64,000 nt of DNA, taken from NCBI RefSeq assembly GCF_001857945.1, contig NZ_CP017770.1, positions 682,001 through 746,000 on the forward strand, written 5' to 3'. The translations under genes were made by a program, and so were the position numbers. The notes under the pieces are model-generated. The model searched no databases, had not been told where the DNA came from, and saw nothing but the letters and a program-made list of their open reading frames with translations. Below are positions 32,328-44,013 of this stretch, piece after piece (within the stretch, counting starts at the first letter, position 1; every line of letters begins with the position of its first letter). The DNA comes from Paenibacillus crassostreae. GTDB lineage: Bacteria; Bacillota; Bacilli; Paenibacillales; Paenibacillaceae.

Positions 32328-33797
32328 TTAGCCTCCGCATGGACCAGGTCCACCCGCCATATTGGTAAATCCGCATGCTCCTTGCTCACTATAGAGATCC
32401 GCAATTTCTTCACGATGTGCTGATGGAATAACAAAGCGATCATCATATTTAGCGATTGCAAGTAAGCGATACATCTCTTCAATTCCTTTTTCCGTCAAAC
32501 CGAATTGCTCAAGTAGTTCAAGATTTGGTTCCTTCTTCAAATTACGAGACCGCATATGTGAACGCATAAGAGCCATCTTCTTAAGGACGTTCTTGATCAC
32601 TTCGGTATCGCCTGCTGATAGCAGATTCGCAAGGTATTGAACAGGAATACGCATATCATCAATAGCTGGGAAAATATCATCTGGATTTGCTGATGTGCCT
32701 TTACCTTCAACCATATTCGTAATCGGGCTAAGCGGTGGAACATACCATACCATCGGCATCGTTCTATATTCTGGATGAAGCGGAAGTGCTATCTTCCAGT
32801 CTACCGCCATTTTATAGATCGGAGAACGTTGTGCAGCATCGATCCAATCTTCTGGGATACCTGCTTCACGAGCAGCTGCAATCACTTCTGGATCAGATGG
32901 GTCTAGGAAAATATCAAGCTGTGCTTCATATAACTTCTGTTCATCCTCAACGGAAGCTGCTTCTTCGACACGATCTGCATCGTAGAACATGACACCGAGG
33001 TAACGAATACGTCCAACACAGGTTTCCGAACAAACCGTCGGTAGACCTTGCTCAATCCGTGGAAAACAGAGTGTACATTTCTCAGCTTTGTTTGTCTGCC
33101 AGTTAAAATATACTTTTTTATAAGGGCAACTAGTTACACAGAACCGCCAAGAACGGCAAGCATTCTGATCGACAAGAACAATTCCATCCTCTTCACGCTT
33201 ATACATCGCACCTGAAGGGCAACTGGACACACAAGATGGATTGATACAGTGTTCACAGATACGAGGTAGATACATCATGAATACTTGTTCGAACTCCATC
33301 CGCACGGATTCTTCAATACCTGCCATATCTGGATCAAGTAATCCTGTTTCGTGGACGCCTGCCAGATCATCCTCCCAGTTAGGACCCCACTTGATTTCCA
33401 TATGTTCACCCGTAATTTGTGATTTCGGGCGCGCCACAGGTTGATGTTTCGTTTCTTTCGTTGGGTTTAATTTTTCATATTCATAGTCCCAAGGCTCATA
33501 ATAATCATCAATGGTTGGTTGGTCTGGATTATGGAATATATTCATCAGACGTTTGGAACGGCTACCGGAGCGTAGCTCCAGTTTACCGTTCTTAAGTATC
33601 CATCCGCCCTTGTATTTCTCTTGGTTCTCCCACTGTTTCGGATAACCGATCCCTGGCTTGGTCTCTACGTTATTGAACCACATGTATTCGGCACCTTTAC
33701 GGTTTGTCCAAGTATTCTTACACGTAACAGAACACGTATGGCATCCGATACATTTATCTAGGTTCATTACCATTCCAATCTGTGCTTTAATCTTCAA
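32328..33797 (-). CDS. narH: Respiratory nitrate reductase beta subunit, TTG start
   Basis: NarH carries one [3Fe-4S] and three [4Fe-4S] clusters that wire NarI to NarG. In 489 residues the cysteine groups are CIGCHTCSVTC near the N-terminus, CEHCINPSCVSSCPSGA, CRSWRFCVTSCPYKK, and CTLCFPRIEQGLPTVCSETC. The Trp in CRSW in place of a Cys is the normal mark of the [3Fe-4S] site. The TTG at 33797 has GGAGG nine bases before it and overlaps the narG stop by 11 bases; the family N-terminus MKIKAQIGMVMNLDKC supports it. The Cys/Gly-rich C-terminus (GGPGPCGG) resembles that of B. subtilis NarH. Confidence 0.97.
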   Translation of the reverse strand: MKIKAQIGMVMNLDKCIGCHTCSVTCKNTWTNRKGAEYMWFNNVETKPGIGYPKQWENQEKYKGGWILKNGKLELRSGSRSKRLMNIFHNPDQPTIDDYYEPWDYEYEKLNPTKETKHQPVARPKSQITGEHMEIKWGPNWEDDLAGVHETGLLDPDMAGIEESVRMEFEQVFMMYLPRICEHCINPSCVSSCPSGAMYKREEDGIVLVDQNACRSWRFCVTSCPYKKVYFNWQTNKAEKCTLCFPRIEQGLPTVCSETCVGRIRYLGVMFYDADRVEEAASVEDEQKLYEAQLDIFLDPSDPEVIAAAREAGIPEDWIDAAQRSPIYKMAVDWKIALPLHPEYRTMPMVWYVPPLSPITNMVEGKGTSANPDDIFPAIDDMRIPVQYLANLLSAGDTEVIKNVLKKMALMRSHMRSRNLKKEPNLELLEQFGLTEKGIEEMYRLLAIAKYDDRFVIPSAHREEIADLYSEQGACGFTNMAGGPGPCGG

Positions 33798-36700
33798 GCC
33801 AATTCACCTCCGTAAGTTTACGTATAACAACATTCAAGTCACGTTGGTTCCCTGTCGGACCATAATAGTTGAAGCCATAGCTCAATTGTGCATATCCACC
33901 AATCATATGTGTTGGCTTCACATGAATTTTCGTCGGACTGTTATGAGTTCCACCACGAGTAGAAGTTACATCTGTTGCAGGAACGTTGATCGTGCGATCT
34001 TGTGCATGGTACATATAGCACATTCCACGCGGCATCCGATGTGTGACAACAGCACGAGCGACAACCGCACCATTCTGATTGAAACATTCAATCCAGTCGT
34101 TATCTTTAATATCTGTTTCCGCTGCATCGTCTTTATTCATCCAAATGGTTGGTCCTCCACGGAACAATGTGAGCATTGGCAGAGAATCATAATACATACT
34201 GTGAATTGACCATTTACTATGTGGAGTCATGAAATTCAATACAATTTCTTTCCCTTTAACACCTGGACGATCTTTAACTGTATGGAAAGGTGAATGTTTC
34301 AACGTTGGTTTGAATATCGCCATATTCTCACCGAATTCTGTTAACATTTCATGATCGACGAAGAAATGTTGTCGTCCCGTCAATGTTCTAAATGGAATCA
34401 TTCGTTCAATATTCGTAGTAAATGGTGAATATCTGCGCCCATGCTGTTCCGTTCCACTGAAAGCAGGTGAAGTAATAACCGTCTTCGGTTGTGCTGTAAT
34501 TTGACTAAAGGTAAATCGTTCATCTTCACGATCCGTCGCCAAATCCTTCAGCTTCAAGTCTGTTTTCTTCTCAAGAGATTCCCATGCTTTTACTGCCATT
34601 TTTCCGTTACTTGTTGAAGATAAGGTCATGATCGTTTCAGCCATATGGATATCTGTGTCTAGCTTAGGACAACCTTCGCCTACACCTGGCTCATCAATTA
34701 CACCATTAATTTTCTTCAGTAGCTCATATTCATCATCAGCTGACCAATTCATCCCTTTAATACCATAAGGCTTTTCTTTCACCAATGGTCCAAGTGAGGT
34801 CATCTTCTTATAGACTTGAGCATAATCACGCTCTACAATAATAAATTTCGGCATTGTCTTACCAGGTATAGCTTCGATCTCTCCCTTACTCCAATCACGC
34901 ACTTTACCAAATGGTTGTGCTAACTCTTCCGGAGTATCATGCATTAAAGGTACGGATACGAGATCCTGTATAGGTCCATCGAATTGCCCTTCCGCCATTT
35001 CCGAGAAGGTCTTGGCAATCGACTTGAACGTTTCCCAGTCTGAACGTGACTCCCAGAGCGGCGGAACCGCTGGGTTGAATGGATGGATAAATGGATGCAT
35101 ATCTGTTGATGAGAGATCACTCTTCTCATACCAAGTAGCAGCCGGAAGAACGATATCGGAATACACAGCCGTACCTGACATACGGAAGTCTATGTTGACC
35201 ATCAAGTCAAGTTTGCCCTCTGCAGCTTCATCTCTCCAGGTTATTTCTTCTGGTCGGATGGTATTTGTATCATCATTTAGTAAGCCGTTGTGCGCACCTA
35301 GTAAATACTTCAAGAAATACTCATGTCCTTTACCAGAACTTGAGATCAGATTCGCACGCCATACAAACATCACCTTCGGATGATTGATTGCTGCATCTGG
35401 ATCTTCCATAGCAAATTTCATTTTACGATCCTTCAATTGCTGAGCCACATATTGTGAAACAGCTTCTGCCGTTGTGGCACCATTGGCATTGGCTTGACTC
35501 ACTAGATTGATCGAATTCTCATCGAACTGAGGATAGGATGGTAACCAACCAAGTCTGGATGCGAGTACGTTATAGTCAGCAGGATGTGCATAACGTGTCT
35601 TATCCACAAGTGCTGATGTATGTCCATCTACCGGGTTCGATTCGAACCGCCATTGATTCGTCGCGAAATAGAAGAACGAGGTTCCGTTCATTTGTCGAGC
35701 AGGCATCGTCCAATCTCTTGCAAAAGCAACTGTAGCCCATCCTTCGGCTGGACGTAGTTTCTCTTGTCCTACGTAATGCGCCCAACCACCACCATTAACA
35801 CCTTGACAACCCGTCATGAGAACCAAGTTCAGAATACTACGATAAATCGTGTCCGAATTGTACCAGTGATTAATTCCTGCACCGACAATAATCATCGAAC
35901 GTCCTTGGCTTTCTACAGCATTTGTAGCAAATTCACGAGCAATTTGAATAATTGAAGCTCGATCAACACCTGTAATGGCTTCTTGCCAAGCTGGTGTATA
36001 TGCGGTGTCTGCATCGTCATAGCTACCAGCACCCGTAGGATCAACTCCATACTGTGCAAGCATCAAGTCAAACACAGAAGTTACCCGATATGTTGTGCCA
36101 TCAGCAGCCTCAATTGTTTTATAAGGAATGCTGCGGGATATGACCGTCTTACCGTCATCATCAAAGTATGGCAAGCTGATGTCTAAATTCCCATTTGCAT
36201 ATTGGCCTAGTCCAAGCTGTGGATTAATGTCGTCACCAGTAATCGTATCCACCGGATTCAAGTTCCATTTACCATCCTCACCCCAACGTGATCCAATTGT
36301 GCCATTCGGGATATGAAGTTCTCCTGTATTTTCATCAATAAGAACTGTCTTCCATTCAGGATTATTCGTTTTAATCCCTAGATCTTTCGCTGTTAGGAAA
36401 CGATCTGCTGTGCAGACTCCGTTCTTCTCTTCCAATAAAAGAAGAAATGGAAAGTCAGTATATTTTTTAGAATAATTTTCGAAATACTCCGTGCGATTCT
36501 GAACATAATATTCATTTAAAATAACATGACCCATCGCCATGGCAAGTGCTCCATCTGTCCCTTGCTTCGATTGTAGCCATTTATCAGCGAATTTCACAAA
36601 CTCAGCATAATCTGGGCTAATAGATACGACCTTAGTTCCACGATATCGAGCTTCTGTCATAAAGTGTGCATCTGGCGTTCTTGTCATTGGAAGGTTAGAT

Positions 36701-37467
36701 CCCCATACAAGCAAGTAGCTAGAATTGTACCAGTCACTACTTTCAGGCACATCCGTCTGATCCCCCCAAATTTGAGGCGAAGCTGGCGGAAGATCTGCGT
36801 ACCAGTCATAGAAACTGAGTAGTGGCGAACCGAGTAACGAGAGAAATCTCGATCCAGCAGCATAGCTAATCATGGACATTGCCGGAATTGGCGAAAATCC
36901 AAATACGCGGTCTGGGCCATATTTCTTAATCGTATACAGTAATGATGCGGAAATAATTTCATTGACCTGATCCCATGATGCACGGACCATGCCGCCCTTG
37001 CCTCGGGCAGATTTATAGGTTAATTTCTTGTCTTCATTCTCAACAATAGAACCCCATGCTAGTACTGGATCTCCGTATTGTTGTTTAGCTTCTTGCCACA
37101 TTTGTAGCAATTTACCTCGGATATATGGATATTTCACCCGAAGTGGACTATATAGATACCAAGAGAAGCTTGCTCCACGTGGACAGCCCCGCGGTTCAAA
37201 TTCAGGCATATCAGGTCCTGTTGTTGGATAATCTGTTTGTTGTGATTCCCAAGTGACAATACCGTTCTTTACGAATATTTTCCAACTGCAAGATCCTGTG
37301 CAGTTAACACCATGGGTAGAACGGACAACTTTATCATGCGACCAGCGGTTACGATACATATCTTCCCAAGAACGATCAGCTGTTGTTACTTCGCTCCATC
37401 CTTCGGCATTCTTTTCTCGCTTGCGGAAAAATGTTAGTTTTTGCAATAGAGGGTTATTCTTCTTCAT
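33787..37467 (-). CDS. narG: Respiratory nitrate reductase alpha subunit
   Basis: NarG is the catalytic subunit that reduces nitrate to nitrite at a bis-MGD molybdenum centre. The 1226-residue protein is near-collinear with B. subtilis NarG. The N-terminal STHGVNCTGSCSWKIF and EPRGCPRGASFSW hold the His/Cys3 ligands of the FS0 cluster, and SFYDWYADLPPASPQ contains the aspartate that ligates molybdenum. HVKPTHMIGGYAQLSYGFN and TGNQRDLNVV end the protein. The ATG at 37467 has CAAGGAG eight bases upstream; the one at 37488 does not. A perfect NreC-type dyad lies about 90 bases before the start. No twin-arginine signal, so it stays on the cytoplasmic face. Confidence 0.98.
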   Translation of the reverse strand: MKKNNPLLQKLTFFRKREKNAEGWSEVTTADRSWEDMYRNRWSHDKVVRSTHGVNCTGSCSWKIFVKNGIVTWESQQTDYPTTGPDMPEFEPRGCPRGASFSWYLYSPLRVKYPYIRGKLLQMWQEAKQQYGDPVLAWGSIVENEDKKLTYKSARGKGGMVRASWDQVNEIISASLLYTIKKYGPDRVFGFSPIPAMSMISYAAGSRFLSLLGSPLLSFYDWYADLPPASPQIWGDQTDVPESSDWYNSSYLLVWGSNLPMTRTPDAHFMTEARYRGTKVVSISPDYAEFVKFADKWLQSKQGTDGALAMAMGHVILNEYYVQNRTEYFENYSKKYTDFPFLLLLEEKNGVCTADRFLTAKDLGIKTNNPEWKTVLIDENTGELHIPNGTIGSRWGEDGKWNLNPVDTITGDDINPQLGLGQYANGNLDISLPYFDDDGKTVISRSIPYKTIEAADGTTYRVTSVFDLMLAQYGVDPTGAGSYDDADTAYTPAWQEAITGVDRASIIQIAREFATNAVESQGRSMIIVGAGINHWYNSDTIYRSILNLVLMTGCQGVNGGGWAHYVGQEKLRPAEGWATVAFARDWTMPARQMNGTSFFYFATNQWRFESNPVDGHTSALVDKTRYAHPADYNVLASRLGWLPSYPQFDENSINLVSQANANGATTAEAVSQYVAQQLKDRKMKFAMEDPDAAINHPKVMFVWRANLISSSGKGHEYFLKYLLGAHNGLLNDDTNTIRPEEITWRDEAAEGKLDLMVNIDFRMSGTAVYSDIVLPAATWYEKSDLSSTDMHPFIHPFNPAVPPLWESRSDWETFKSIAKTFSEMAEGQFDGPIQDLVSVPLMHDTPEELAQPFGKVRDWSKGEIEAIPGKTMPKFIIVERDYAQVYKKMTSLGPLVKEKPYGIKGMNWSADDEYELLKKINGVIDEPGVGEGCPKLDTDIHMAETIMTLSSTSNGKMAVKAWESLEKKTDLKLKDLATDREDERFTFSQITAQPKTVITSPAFSGTEQHGRRYSPFTTNIERMIPFRTLTGRQHFFVDHEMLTEFGENMAIFKPTLKHSPFHTVKDRPGVKGKEIVLNFMTPHSKWSIHSMYYDSLPMLTLFRGGPTIWMNKDDAAETDIKDNDWIECFNQNGAVVARAVVTHRMPRGMCYMYHAQDRTINVPATDVTSTRGGTHNSPTKIHVKPTHMIGGYAQLSYGFNYYGPTGNQRDLNVVIRKLTEVNWLED

Positions 37468-37500
37468 TCGGTCATCTCCTTGCGCCATATTCTACTTATC

Positions 37501-39563: not shown

Positions 39564-41072
39564 CTAGATTAACTTAGCCAAGGTTGGATCTACTTCGCTA
39601 AATACTCCGACGTAATAATTTGTTTCACCTACATCATTTTGTACTGCATTAATGGTGATATGTTGTAGAAAAGCTTCTCCGTTTCTTTTCTTATTCCAAA
39701 TATTCCCGCTCCAACAATTATTCTCTTTCAATCCCTTCCACATAGACTCGTAGAATTCTTTATCATGACGACCTGATTTGAGAAATCCGGATTTTTGCCC
39801 AATAGCCATGTCAGCAGTATATCCAGTGACTGCTGTATACGCAGGATTTACGTTGATGATTATGCCTTTTTTGTTTGTAACAAGCACGGCTTGCGAAGTA
39901 CTTTGAATGATTTGCTCTGCTAACTTCACTCGATCCTGCCAGTACAAATATAGCACAAGCAACAAGCTACATAATGCAACCATGGATAATGCCATGAATC
40001 CAATCGCATAATGACCTGTTATTGCAAGAAGGGCTGATAACATAAGTGGAGGGAAGAATCCCCCGAGACCACCAAGGGCAGAAATAAGTCCATTAGCAAT
40101 ACCTGCTTGCTTCGAGAAATATAGTGGAACTAATTTAAATAGTGTACCATTTCCTGTTCCCGAACAGAAACCAATAAGTAAACATCCTACTGAATACAAC
40201 ATAATGGATGGTGAAAATGCTAGCATAATACCACCGATTGTCAATCCTATGAATACAAATGATAGAATTTTAAATGGATTAAGCTTATCACCTAACCAGC
40301 CACCTACAGGACGCATAATTGTTGCCAATAGCACAAAACCAGCGGTACGAAGACCTGCATCTATTTTACTAATACCAAAATGTTGAACAAGATGGTTGGG
40401 TAAGAATACTGTGAATGCAACAAAAGAACCGAACGTTATAAAGTAAAAGAAGCACAGAAGCCATAATTTCTCATTTTTGTAGATCCCTTTAATTTGCTCC
40501 ATCAAAGGAACGCTCGATTTATTCTCTTTACGATCACCTATAAAGAAGTTAGCAATCGCAAATATAATGAGAAGAATAAGATAAAACTGAACCGTAGACC
40601 GCCATCCAAACTGCGTTGCTAATATTGGTGCGAAGAATGTACTTAATGCAGATCCAATATTCCCCAGTCCGTAAATACCATTAACGAGTCCGTGTTTCTC
40701 GCGTGGATAATACTTAGGAATTGAAGTAACACCTACAGAGAACGTAGCGCCTGAAACCCCCAGGAATAATCCCCCTATGATAAGGTCAGCAAAACTGTCA
40801 GCTCTACTGATATAGAATACTGGGACTAACAAGACAACGAAGCTGATTAAGAACATCAGTCGAGCCCCATACTTATTCGTCCAATAACCAAATGGAACCC
40901 GTAAAATAGAACCTAATATAATCGGTACGGCCGTGACTAACGATAATTGTCCTGATGTTAAAGGAATTCCGTCTTTAATAAATACGATTAGCGATGATAA
41001 GATACCCCAAACAGCAAAGCCAAGCACTAGACTTAACGTTTGTAAGGGTAATATTGCCTTTTTTTGTTTCAC
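39564..41072 (-). CDS. narK: NarK-type nitrate/nitrite transporter fused to a C-terminal PAS domain, GTG start
   Basis: The 502-residue protein has two parts. Residues 1-380 are an MFS nitrate/nitrite transporter with about twelve membrane helices and both NarK signatures, GIYGLGNIGSALSTFFAP and GLISALGGLGGFFPPLML. Residues about 384-502 form a cytoplasmic PAS plus PAC module: AVLVTNKKGIIINVNPAYTA, GYTADMAIGQ, FLKSGRHDKEFYESMW and a C-terminal NYYVGVFSEVD strand. That PAS type is usual in diguanylate cyclases and kinases, not transporters. The GTG at 41072 has AGGAGG seven bases upstream. The gene follows the nreA-like gene and precedes moeA. The PAS may sense redox state or a ligand and gate transport or signal to the Nre proteins; this is inference. 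Confidence 0.9.
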   Translation of the reverse strand: MKQKKAILPLQTLSLVLGFAVWGILSSLIVFIKDGIPLTSGQLSLVTAVPIILGSILRVPFGYWTNKYGARLMFLISFVVLLVPVFYISRADSFADLIIGGLFLGVSGATFSVGVTSIPKYYPREKHGLVNGIYGLGNIGSALSTFFAPILATQFGWRSTVQFYLILLIIFAIANFFIGDRKENKSSVPLMEQIKGIYKNEKLWLLCFFYFITFGSFVAFTVFLPNHLVQHFGISKIDAGLRTAGFVLLATIMRPVGGWLGDKLNPFKILSFVFIGLTIGGIMLAFSPSIMLYSVGCLLIGFCSGTGNGTLFKLVPLYFSKQAGIANGLISALGGLGGFFPPLMLSALLAITGHYAIGFMALSMVALCSLLLVLYLYWQDRVKLAEQIIQSTSQAVLVTNKKGIIINVNPAYTAVTGYTADMAIGQKSGFLKSGRHDKEFYESMWKGLKENNCWSGNIWNKKRNGEAFLQHITINAVQNDVGETNYYVGVFSEVDPTLAKLI

Positions 41073-41109: not shown

Positions 41110-41176
41110 ATTATCATGGAAACCTACTGGGAAACAAACAGGGGAATTCCCTCATTTCATGCTAGGAATTCCCCAC
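41110..41176 (-). promoter_or_regulatory. Two GGAATTCC dyads resembling NreC sites upstream of narK
   Basis: GGGGAATTCCC (41141-41151) and TAGGAATTCCCCA (41163-41175) each match TAGGG-N4-CCCTA at 7 of 10 defined positions and are about 21 bases apart, two helical turns. They also pair with each other as a 10-bp hairpin. A possible -10, GATAAT (41110-41115), would put the dyads near -44 and -65; the second offset equals that at narG. The start of transcription is an estimate. Confidence 0.45.
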
Positions 41177-41187
41177 ATATCGTAATT

Positions 41188-42111
41188 TTAATTACTCCAA
41201 TTTATTTCATCAAGTAAAAGTCGTGTTGGTATTGAAAATCTTACCGATTGTTTTTCCTTCTCAATCAGGATTTCTAGATCACATTTAAGTGATTTAAGCT
41301 GGGGCATGACAGATTGAAATAACTCTTGTGATGCAGGGTGAAGAAGATAACCCTCATATTCGATCACAGTGTGCCCTAACTCATCTTGACCAATAATTAA
41401 TTGCGAAGCTTCTGTAGAAATAGCATACTCTTGTACCAATAGGGATATGATTGCTGCAATTTCCTCCTGACGTTCTCCACTCAATCGTGTTATTCGCTGA
41501 TCTAACAGTTCACAAGTAATTCCTGCTGCTTGCGCCTCATGAAGTAGTTGGACAATTGGCCCTGTTTTATGATTCATTGCAGATTCAGTATCTTTATATA
41601 GTTGCTCATTTGATTTAGGTATTCCAACAAACTCCTCAACATCTCCAGAGTTAGTAACCTCGTCATACAATTGAGCAAGCACACTAGCACAGTCTTGCAC
41701 ACGTGCAATTTCCTGTGCAAGGAATATACGTCTGCTTCGATGACCAACGAGCAGTACACCATACGCTAGCCTTTGTGCCTGAATAGTAGATTTAATGGAT
41801 ACACCTACTCCAGAGTGAAGGGATTCCACTATGAAGATCGGATATTCTAATACCTCTTCCTGTACATCTCCCGGAAACACATTAACAACGTGTGGAGTCA
41901 TCCCCTGCAGAACTTTACCAGCCATTCCTTTACCCATACGAACTGAAATTTTCTTGTATTGATCTGATTTGGCACCGAGGGCAAATCGCCAATAAATATC
42001 ACGGTATATACCATCTGTTAACGCTATGGCAACAAAATCCAATCCTATTTCTTGCTTGAGTTCTTCTAGTTCTCTTTGGATTTTCTGCTGGATCGTAGTA
42101 CTGTTAATCAA
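41188..42111 (-). CDS. nreA: NreA-like GAF-domain protein (probable nitrate receptor) with C-terminal extension, TTG start
   Basis: The N-terminal 150 residues form a GAF domain with IYWRFALGA (Trp41) and RMGKGMAGKVLQG (59-70), the part that in staphylococcal NreA lines the nitrate pocket. A C-terminal extension of about 140 residues with no recognised motif follows, so the protein (307 residues) is twice the length of S. carnosus NreA. The extension contains a helix-rich stretch and a strand LGHTVIEYEGYLLHPA. The TTG at 42111 overlaps the response regulator by 8 bases and has GGGGG ten bases upstream. It is the third gene of the kinase-regulator-receptor run and lies before narK, so nitrate sensing is the likely role. 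The identification is by context and fold. Confidence 0.7.
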   Translation of the reverse strand: MINSTTIQQKIQRELEELKQEIGLDFVAIALTDGIYRDIYWRFALGAKSDQYKKISVRMGKGMAGKVLQGMTPHVVNVFPGDVQEEVLEYPIFIVESLHSGVGVSIKSTIQAQRLAYGVLLVGHRSRRIFLAQEIARVQDCASVLAQLYDEVTNSGDVEEFVGIPKSNEQLYKDTESAMNHKTGPIVQLLHEAQAAGITCELLDQRITRLSGERQEEIAAIISLLVQEYAISTEASQLIIGQDELGHTVIEYEGYLLHPASQELFQSVMPQLKSLKCDLEILIEKEKQSVRFSIPTRLLLDEINWSN

Positions 42112-42760
42112 TATCCAGTAACCCCCTTCTATAAGCCAATTTCACTAACTCTCGGCGATTATCTAATTGCAACTTATCCATCATATTTGCTTTATGATTC
42201 TCAACTGTCTTTACGCTAATCAATAGCAATTCTGCCACTTCCTTATTAGTATATCCCTTTGCTACTAGACTAAGAATTTCCTTTTCCCGTTCTGTCAGAG
42301 ATTCGAATACATCCTTTGGATCTTTCGGCTGTCCTTGCAGATACCCTTGAATAACCTTTTTAGTTGCAGATGGATGTAAATATACAAGCCCTTGTTGAAC
42401 CTGTTCAATGGCCGTTACAAGTTCGGATAATGGTGCTGATTTCAGAATATATCCTGATGCTCCTGCTTTTAGTGCGCGAAATAAATACTGTTCATCATCA
42501 TGCATCGTTAGAACAATAACCTTCACTTCGGGCATTGATTGCAAAAGCTCCTTCGTTGTATAGAGACCATCACGGCCATTTGGAAAGCTTAGATCCATCA
42601 GCACAATGTCTGGTTTAAGTTCCATGGCTTGCTGAATACAGGATACACTATCTGCTGCTTCACCAACGACTGTGATACTGGCTTGTGCATCAAGTACAGC
42701 ACGAAGCCCACTTCGCACGACAGCATGATCGTCTACAATGATAACCTTTATTTTCAACAT
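42104..42760 (-). CDS. nreC: NreC-like LuxR-family response regulator
   Basis: The 218-residue protein is a NarL/FixJ-type response regulator. The receiver domain has IIVDDHAVVRSG with the acidic pair, the phospho-acceptor Asp in IVLMDLSFP, VLTMHDDEQYLF and YILKSAP with the conserved Lys. The C-terminal LuxR helix-turn-helix is LTEREKEILSLVAKGYTNKE to VKTVENHKANMMDKL. Along its length it resembles S. carnosus NreC, including the unusual DDEQYLFRALKAGASGYILK region. AGGAGG precedes the ATG. It is 8 bases after the kinase gene. It should bind the TAGGG-N4-CCCTA dyad upstream of narG. Confidence 0.85.
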   Translation of the reverse strand: MLKIKVIIVDDHAVVRSGLRAVLDAQASITVVGEAADSVSCIQQAMELKPDIVLMDLSFPNGRDGLYTTKELLQSMPEVKVIVLTMHDDEQYLFRALKAGASGYILKSAPLSELVTAIEQVQQGLVYLHPSATKKVIQGYLQGQPKDPKDVFESLTEREKEILSLVAKGYTNKEVAELLLISVKTVENHKANMMDKLQLDNRRELVKLAYRRGLLDID

Positions 42761-42768
42761 ATACCCTC

Positions 42769-44013
42769 CTATGATTTCGAACCAAAATGATCTGAATTAG
42801 AGATTTGCACCTGTATTGTAGTCCCTTCTCCCAACTTAGATTGAATGTCAAACGCGCCACCTAGAATCTTGACTCTCTCCTCCATACTATATAACCCAAC
42901 TCCTTGACGGAGCTCAGAAGTAATGACAAAACCTAATCCGTAATCTCTTACCTTTAATTCTGCGGAAGTCTGATTAAGCTTTAACTGAACATCTATCATA
43001 TCAGTTTGTGAATATTTAGCTGCATTCGTAAGTGCTTCTTGAACGATGCGGTAAAAGGCTGTCTCAATTGCCGCTGGCATACGCGCACCCTCCTCTTCCA
43101 CTTTGAAATGAACCTGAATACCAAATTTCTGCCCATACATGCGGAAATATTTGCGGAGAGCAGCGATCAATCCAATATCATCAAGCGCAGATGGCCGTAG
43201 TTCGGCTGATAAGTCACGGATATCCTCGATCGTATTGCGAATAGCATCCTGCAAAGGGTCCATGTGATCATCAGATATCTCATTTCCAATATTCTGTTTC
43301 AACACTTCAGATTGAATCAGAATGCTATAGAGCGACTGTCCGATTCCATCGTGTAACTCGCGCGATATAAGTTTTCTTTCATTCTCTTGTGCGAGCAGTA
43401 TGGAATGTGTAATCATCTTGGCAATTTGATGTTGTTCTTCCTGACGTTTCTCTTCAACTTCTTGAATACGCAATATACTTAAGGGCCCATGCATCGTGTC
43501 TACATAATGCGATACGCTAGCATTGACAGATTTGGTAACTCCCTGTGGAGTAACTACTTGAAGCTCTATTAACTGTTGAGATGAATCAGAAACAAAACAA
43601 TCTTGATAAGAACAAAGTTTATGCAACCCTGGATAATTCGAACACATATTGCAGAAACTCAAGGTCATTTCACCATCATCTATATTTAACATTTGCTGAG
43701 CAGCTGGATTAATTCTCTTAATATTCATCTCTTTGTCAAGCACAAGAACACCATCTGAAATATGCTTAAATACACTTGCCAGTTGTTCTTGCTCTGATCT
43801 AAGCCTACGCCCTTGGGAATAAATAATAAAGAAAAATACAGTTGTAATAATTAATACAAAACAAAATGTCGTTATAAAATATTTCCAATCGTTATCATCG
43901 ATCCCTAGCATAATTCGAATCGAGAATACAATGATTAAGGTAGTGCTGATCGTTAATAAGCCATTTCTAACCATGAACTTCGCTAATCCAAGTGACTTTC
44001 GAAAAGGTATCAT
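42769..44013 (-). CDS. nreB: NreB-like sensor histidine kinase with membrane anchor and four-cysteine PAS region
   Basis: The 414-residue kinase has two predicted membrane helices (about 17-36 and 46-65), a PAS domain (75-180), and a HisKA_3/HATPase_c core with phospho-acceptor His221 in SRELHDGIGQSLYSI and an N-box EALTNAAKYS. Inside the PAS are four cysteines, Cys121, Cys124, Cys134 and Cys139 (C-x2-C-x9-C-x4-C). In S. carnosus the soluble NreB uses four cysteines in C-x2-C-x11-C-x2-C for an oxygen-labile [4Fe-4S] cluster. Here the spacing differs and the kinase is membrane-bound. GGAG lies seven bases before the ATG. First gene of the nreBCA run. Oxygen or redox sensing by an iron-sulfur cluster is a strong inference, not shown. 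Confidence 0.82.
   Translation of the reverse strand: MIPFRKSLGLAKFMVRNGLLTISTTLIIVFSIRIMLGIDDNDWKYFITTFCFVLIITTVFFFIIYSQGRRLRSEQEQLASVFKHISDGVLVLDKEMNIKRINPAAQQMLNIDDGEMTLSFCNMCSNYPGLHKLCSYQDCFVSDSSQQLIELQVVTPQGVTKSVNASVSHYVDTMHGPLSILRIQEVEEKRQEEQHQIAKMITHSILLAQENERKLISRELHDGIGQSLYSILIQSEVLKQNIGNEISDDHMDPLQDAIRNTIEDIRDLSAELRPSALDDIGLIAALRKYFRMYGQKFGIQVHFKVEEEGARMPAAIETAFYRIVQEALTNAAKYSQTDMIDVQLKLNQTSAELKVRDYGLGFVITSELRQGVGLYSMEERVKILGGAFDIQSKLGEGTTIQVQISNSDHFGSKS

Follow-up and report, generated by a model that had tools for sequence, protein, structure and literature searches.

A NarK-type transporter with a fused C-terminal PAS domain in Paenibacillus crassostreae and related bacteria: a putative nitrate/nitrite carrier with a predicted FAD-type sensor

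A NarK-type carrier and a PAS domain in one reading frame

The DNA analyzed here (the window) is a stretch of 64,000 nucleotides from Paenibacillus crassostreae (contig NZ_CP017770.1, positions 682,001 to 746,000). It contains a gene, termed narK-PAS (39564..41072 of the window), whose product of 502 aa joins a NarK-type major facilitator superfamily (MFS) transporter to a C-terminal PAS domain. This gene and all other window genes described below lie on the minus strand. The reading frame (41072..39564) is uninterrupted over 502 codons and begins with GTG, with the sequence AGGAGG directly 5′ of it. An alternative in-frame ATG at position 41117 would give a product of 517 aa, but GTG was preferred as the probable start, since it appears to fit the ribosome site better.

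Pfam analysis assigned MFS_1 to residues 14–340 (204 bits) and PAS (PF00989) to residues 386–493 (44 bits; cut-off 22.6), with PAS_9 scoring 43 bits; the tail scanned alone gave a PAS score of 48 bits. The transporter part (residues 1–377; 39942..41072) and the PAS domain (residues 386–495; 39588..39917) are connected by a predicted continuous helix (residues 355–391; 39900..40010), in which the last membrane helix runs into the PAS. The protein stops shortly after this domain, and neither a kinase nor a cyclase is attached.

In a protein search, 7996 candidates were scored and 3958 relatives were found. The best 120 of these (the window's own protein included) all contain both MFS_1 and PAS, at 59–100% identity; the other 119 listed homologues (59–87% identity) cover 95–100% of the query. 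A genuine one-frame fusion, rather than two genes, was thereby confirmed, as an earlier sequence-only reading of this DNA had claimed. According to that reading, a frameshift or sequencing error near position 39,920 would refute the fusion, but no sign of a frameshift was found: the 119 other listed homologues are all two-domain proteins, and the span G358–T399 has the same length (42 residues) in 209/209 aligned PAS-bearing rows, although other stretches are just as constant. Single breaks do occur, as in Virgibacillus subterraneus (L076:9974-11506), where the 402-aa carrier and the PAS lie in separate frames, owing either to a break of recent date or to faulty assembly. However, a sequencing error that joined two genes in the window was rejected and has a negligible probability, given the fusion in 209 non-identical rows, in all 120 listed homologues and in a second copy of the same genome. 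This second copy (G000:C1:279075-280547; L115:8564-10081; 55% identity) adjoins a second narGH set. A third, distant carrier of the same genome has no PAS.

The distribution of the fusion was examined across the class of the window, taken as Bacilli, in a set of 398 genomes. Weak matches were left out and three candidates were scored per genome, and further copies may therefore have been missed. A PAS-bearing copy was found in 66 of the 398 genomes, with at least 68 matches extending through the PAS (those in G081 and G205 start beyond residue 100). PAS-less carriers at ≥50% identity were present in 37/398 genomes, 32 of them in family f10; among the matches listed, only one genome (G138) has carriers of both types. 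Family f10 is probably Staphylococcaceae, because the gene order nar-nreABC-narK and 26 above-cut-off NreA matches are located there, and family f15 is probably B. subtilis-like. Among 398 genomes of the phylum, 11 of which matched at E ≤ 1e-30, the sole match outside the class lacks the PAS. Matches were also found in 182 plasmid records, just one of which (Niallia taxi) reaches ≥80% query coverage. The NarK-PAS fusion occurs in many Bacillus- and Paenibacillus-like bacteria and is not rare.

No description of a NarK-PAS fusion was found in the open-licence literature searched, including the available text of PMC8139620, which does not prove its absence from print. In the accessible part of PMC3475470, narK of B. 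azotoformans is listed as 1500 bp, a size that fits the fused form, and as linked to the narGHJI cluster; it is assigned there to the NarK2 subfamily, and "pas" matches only "Pasteur" in that text. The parts of narK-PAS belong to known families; their combination appears to be new.

The best NCBIfam match of the protein is the NarK model TIGR00886 (223.4 bits; E = 4.5e-66). As this score is below the curated cut-off (311.7), the carrier is referred to as NarK-type and not as a certified NarK member. Nitrite extrusion proteins 1 and 2 and NarK were the best matches of the transporter part in a PDB sequence search, and NarK (4u4w) was the best match in a fold search. Residues R58 and R254, one in each half, are unvarying in 42/42 rows of alignment A1 and align with arginines of 4jr9 that have a role in substrate handling. 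Transport of nitrate/nitrite by the product is putative. The NarK/NarU chains (PDB 4jr9, 4u4w, 4iu8) share the MFS fold, but they carry no attached sensor and are about 24% identical to the carrier. E. coli YajR (PDB 3wdo; rank 41 in the fold search) is likewise an MFS carrier with a C-terminal soluble domain, but this extra domain is not known to be a PAS.

The PAS domain and its predicted cofactor

The tail was modelled as a PAS fold with a mean predicted local distance difference test (pLDDT) score of 87. The solved structures nearest to it by sequence are those of the flavin adenine dinucleotide (FAD) redox sensors MmoS (tandem PAS, PDB 3ewk, the best match) and NifL, and the nearest by fold is PAS1 of Azotobacter vinelandii NifL (PDB 2gj3; template modelling score 0.86, root-mean-square deviation 1.3 Å). 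MmoS is a histidine kinase sensor, unlike narK-PAS, but it is described in the available text of PMC10468136 as sensing redox through FAD, as is predicted for the narK-PAS tail. Similarly, the output of NifL PAS1 consists, according to the accessible part of PMC3466315, of a second PAS and effector domains, whereas in narK-PAS a transporter is attached.

Tyr441 and Trp445 (codons 39738..39752) and Asn460 (39693..39695), the equivalents of NifL Tyr83, Trp87 and Asn102, are unvarying in 209/209 PAS-bearing rows, and the equivalent of NifL Thr41 is kept in 208/209. The residues of the cofactor pocket rank among the most conserved positions of the domain. Roles of Tyr83 and Trp87 at the FAD site of NifL are described in the available portion of PMC8063818, and the F-helix Trp is named as the primary determinant of FAD binding in PAS domains (PMC10468136, same text). 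Two further NifL contacts, Arg80 and Glu70, are not kept (K438 and S428 in narK-PAS; variable or different across the family). Position 436 is His in 82/209 rows and otherwise Gln; we read H436 as the histidine of the FAD site found in some clusters. The Tyr/Trp/Asn signature was also checked in other PAS proteins, but the profile returned only 14 rows, all of the same class, and was not discriminating.

The domain might instead sense another input, such as blue light (LOV type), a heme-bound gas or a small ligand, but this appears very unlikely. The position aligned to the LOV adduct cysteine (428) is Cys in 0/209 rows, being occupied by P, S, A or T, and the LOV type was rejected. In the F helix (438–451) no conserved heme histidine was found (His in at most 7/209 rows at any position), and a heme PAS of the FixL/DosP type was likewise rejected. 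Judged from sequence and model, the predicted ligand is narrowed to FAD.

Second nreB-like kinases with tandem PAS domains of the same Trp/Asn class were seen near narK-PAS in three loci (L092, L095 and L096). The PAS of these kinases is a possible donor of the fused domain.

Genes accompanying the fusion

The minus-strand gene order in the window is nreB, nreC, nreA, narK-PAS, moeA, mobB, narG and narH, where moeA, mobB and narH are names that we presume. The genes directly upstream encode (i) an NreB-like PAS histidine kinase (42769..44013; HisKA_3, HATPase_c and PAS_8), (ii) an NreC-like response regulator (42104..42760; Response_reg and GerE) and (iii) an NreA-like GAF protein of 307 aa (41188..42111; NF038250, 70.9 bits, below the cut-off of 175). 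Downstream lie narG (33787..37488; TIGR01580 match at G000:C1:715793-719452) and the open reading frame taken as narH (32328..33797). The NreA-like protein is about twice the length of the 142-position NreA model; Pfam detects in it just a weak GAF at residues 8–147 and nothing in its last half. Inspection by eye of the NreB-like protein revealed a hydrophobic N-terminus and, in its PAS part, the motif CNMC...CSYQDC, which resembles the Fe-S cysteine pattern of NreB in staphylococci.

The gap between nreA and narK-PAS (41128-41190) contains an 11-pair hairpin with arms GGGGAATTCC/GGAATTCCCC. The 63-base region has a folding energy of −20.1 kcal/mol (z = −2.57; 4/200 shuffles as good), and a simple terminator scan did not return this hairpin. 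It may be either a terminator or a regulator site, and narK-PAS may therefore be transcribed separately.

Eighty named fusion loci were compared (up to 10 kb per side, shorter at contig ends). The nreB-nreC-nreA genes directly precede the fusion in 8/8 closest relatives (L035–L042), as in the window. Over all loci, nreA was found in only 14/80, eight of which are these relatives, and nreC in 16/80. The narG gene is present in 33/80 loci and a NasC/formate-dehydrogenase-like set in another 33/80; none has both and 14/80 have neither. The latter set, seen at L043:5430-9826, L046:5475-9823 and 31 further loci, comprises a molybdopterin enzyme, a DmsB-like Fe-S protein and a Rieske protein, with a NarI-like membrane protein in 32/33 cases, and could constitute an alternative membrane-bound nitrate reductase. 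By eye, the Rieske protein has a twin-arginine-like start; the NarI-like protein matches PF02665 weakly, under the cut-off in the three cases scanned.

In the survey of 398 class genomes, NarG accompanies fused carriers in 49/66 and an NreA match does so in 46/66; the figures for PAS-less relatives are 36/37 and 34/37, respectively. These counts are inflated by related species. NreA matches (E ≤ 1e-12) were obtained in 110 genomes, only 26 of them over the model cut-off, and the rest may be other GAF proteins. The connection to Nre in the sequence-only reading thus holds for the window, where nreBCA adjoins the fusion, but not as a general trait, and Nre linkage as a rule was rejected. The PAS accompanies nitrate reduction generally, not Nre.

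These data bear on two further explanations of the PAS. The carrier might act as a receptor whose transport is ungated, with its PAS informing a partner, for example the NreB-like PAS kinase, of flux or redox state. The conserved upstream position of nreB-nreC-nreA in the window and its closest relatives favors this, but the scarcity of nreA and nreC in the fusion loci, the lack of an NreA match in 20/66 PAS-bearing genomes and the frequent NreA matches alongside PAS-less carriers make it improbable. Alternatively, the PAS might be a docking or dimerizing module with no working cofactor, for example one that pairs carriers or tethers them to a nitrate reductase. PAS domains are typically dimeric (PMC3466315, available part), and narG or the NasC-like reductase is present in 66/80 loci; the strong conservation of the cofactor-pocket residues, which pure docking would not need, nevertheless renders this option rather unlikely.

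History of the PAS domain and proposed redox gating

In a transporter-only tree (81 PAS-bearing rows, 13 PAS-less rows and one outgroup), seven changes of state are needed to explain the presence of the PAS. One PAS-less row (L134) lies outside the PAS-bearing branch; the remaining twelve are nested inside it in six places: L117, L118, L120, the B. subtilis-like pair L121 and L122, a staphylococcal-type group (six rows, drawn from the 32 genomes detected) and the split gene of L076. Most simply, the PAS was gained once and lost six times, the loss in L076 being recent or an assembly error; the count is approximate, as deep forks are unsettled, some branches are long and the bootstrap is not fully settled. 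The approximately unbiased test, applied to groups named only after the tree had been seen, rejected both a single ancestral group of PAS-less rows (11 rows, L076 and L134 aside; p = 1.5e-53) and a single clade uniting every PAS-bearing row with L076 (82 rows; p = 2.9e-40). In this NarK branch, fusion to the PAS seems to be the ancestral state, from which the PAS-less forms descend; here the fused sensor is not the exception that the sequence-only reading had taken it to be. A tblastn search of the PAS-less loci with the window's tail (E ≤ 1) revealed no PAS remnants except in L076.

The ratios of nonsynonymous to synonymous substitution rates (dN/dS) in 14 close non-overlapping pairs were 0.011–0.134 for the PAS and 0.014–0.094 for the transporter; the values are rough, as several dS exceed 1, and pairs with saturated values were skipped. 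The PAS is kept under purifying selection as a working domain. It nevertheless diverges faster than the transporter over long times: in ten chosen rows its identity to the window is 40–50%, compared with 57–67% for the transporter. At 133 conserved transporter positions, staphylococcal-type rows changed 14 and the four other PAS-less lineages 0–4, compared with 0–5 in ten chosen PAS-bearing controls. Only two of the 133 positions are altered in two PAS-less lineages, and no interface signal of PAS loss was seen among them.

We consider it fairly probable that the PAS is an FAD redox switch acting on the carrier via the helix joined to its last membrane helix. In an oxygen-fed cell, the FAD would be oxidized and the shape of the PAS altered; this change would be relayed along the common helix and keep the carrier inactive. 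When oxygen is exhausted, reduction of the FAD would allow nitrate entry or nitrite exit to restart. As the protein has no further effector domain and terminates shortly beyond the PAS, the transporter is the presumed output. The full AlphaFold2 model (overall pLDDT 81) contains a single helix over residues 355–391, but its join is less certain, as the block 381–390 scores only 64. Of the inputs suggested in the sequence-only reading (redox state, oxygen or a ligand), redox is the best candidate. FAD binding is predicted from sequence and model, and the direction of the switch and the gating of transport are proposed by analogy.

The proposal combines two precedents, one for the sensor and one for the effect. 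In NifL, as described in the accessible part of PMC3466315, FAD is oxidized by oxygen, and a part in signalling is attributed to the flank of PAS1 on its N-terminal side; the narK-PAS carrier is attached on this same N-terminal side. NarK2 of Mycobacterium tuberculosis is, according to the available text of PMC3445494, a respiratory nitrate carrier inhibited via redox state, in which the carrier itself is the control point and nitrite production is about 15-fold greater without air. Redox control of this kind is proposed here for narK-PAS, but that text does not mention a PAS; it states that the mechanism of NarK2 inactivation is unknown, 23 residues having been changed without finding the cause.

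Respiratory nitrate carriers are reported to be inactivated by the redox state that prevails in aerated cells. NarK-PAS would be a candidate for this redox inactivation, and with a sensor of flavin type as part of its own chain, the question of carrier shut-off would be reduced to one protein. If true, this would clearly exemplify the gating of a transporter by an FAD-PAS attached to it, for which PAS-bearing and PAS-less relatives are natural controls. It is conceivable, at somewhat less than an even chance, that the NarK from which this Bacilli branch descends already had a flavin redox gate of its own, and that the better-studied carriers, staphylococcal NarT and B. subtilis-type NarK, have lost it. 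If so, these bacteria would control nitrate entry within the carrier molecule itself, which would provide, for Gram-positives, a direct molecular explanation of the arrest of nitrate uptake by oxygen, a long-standing question.
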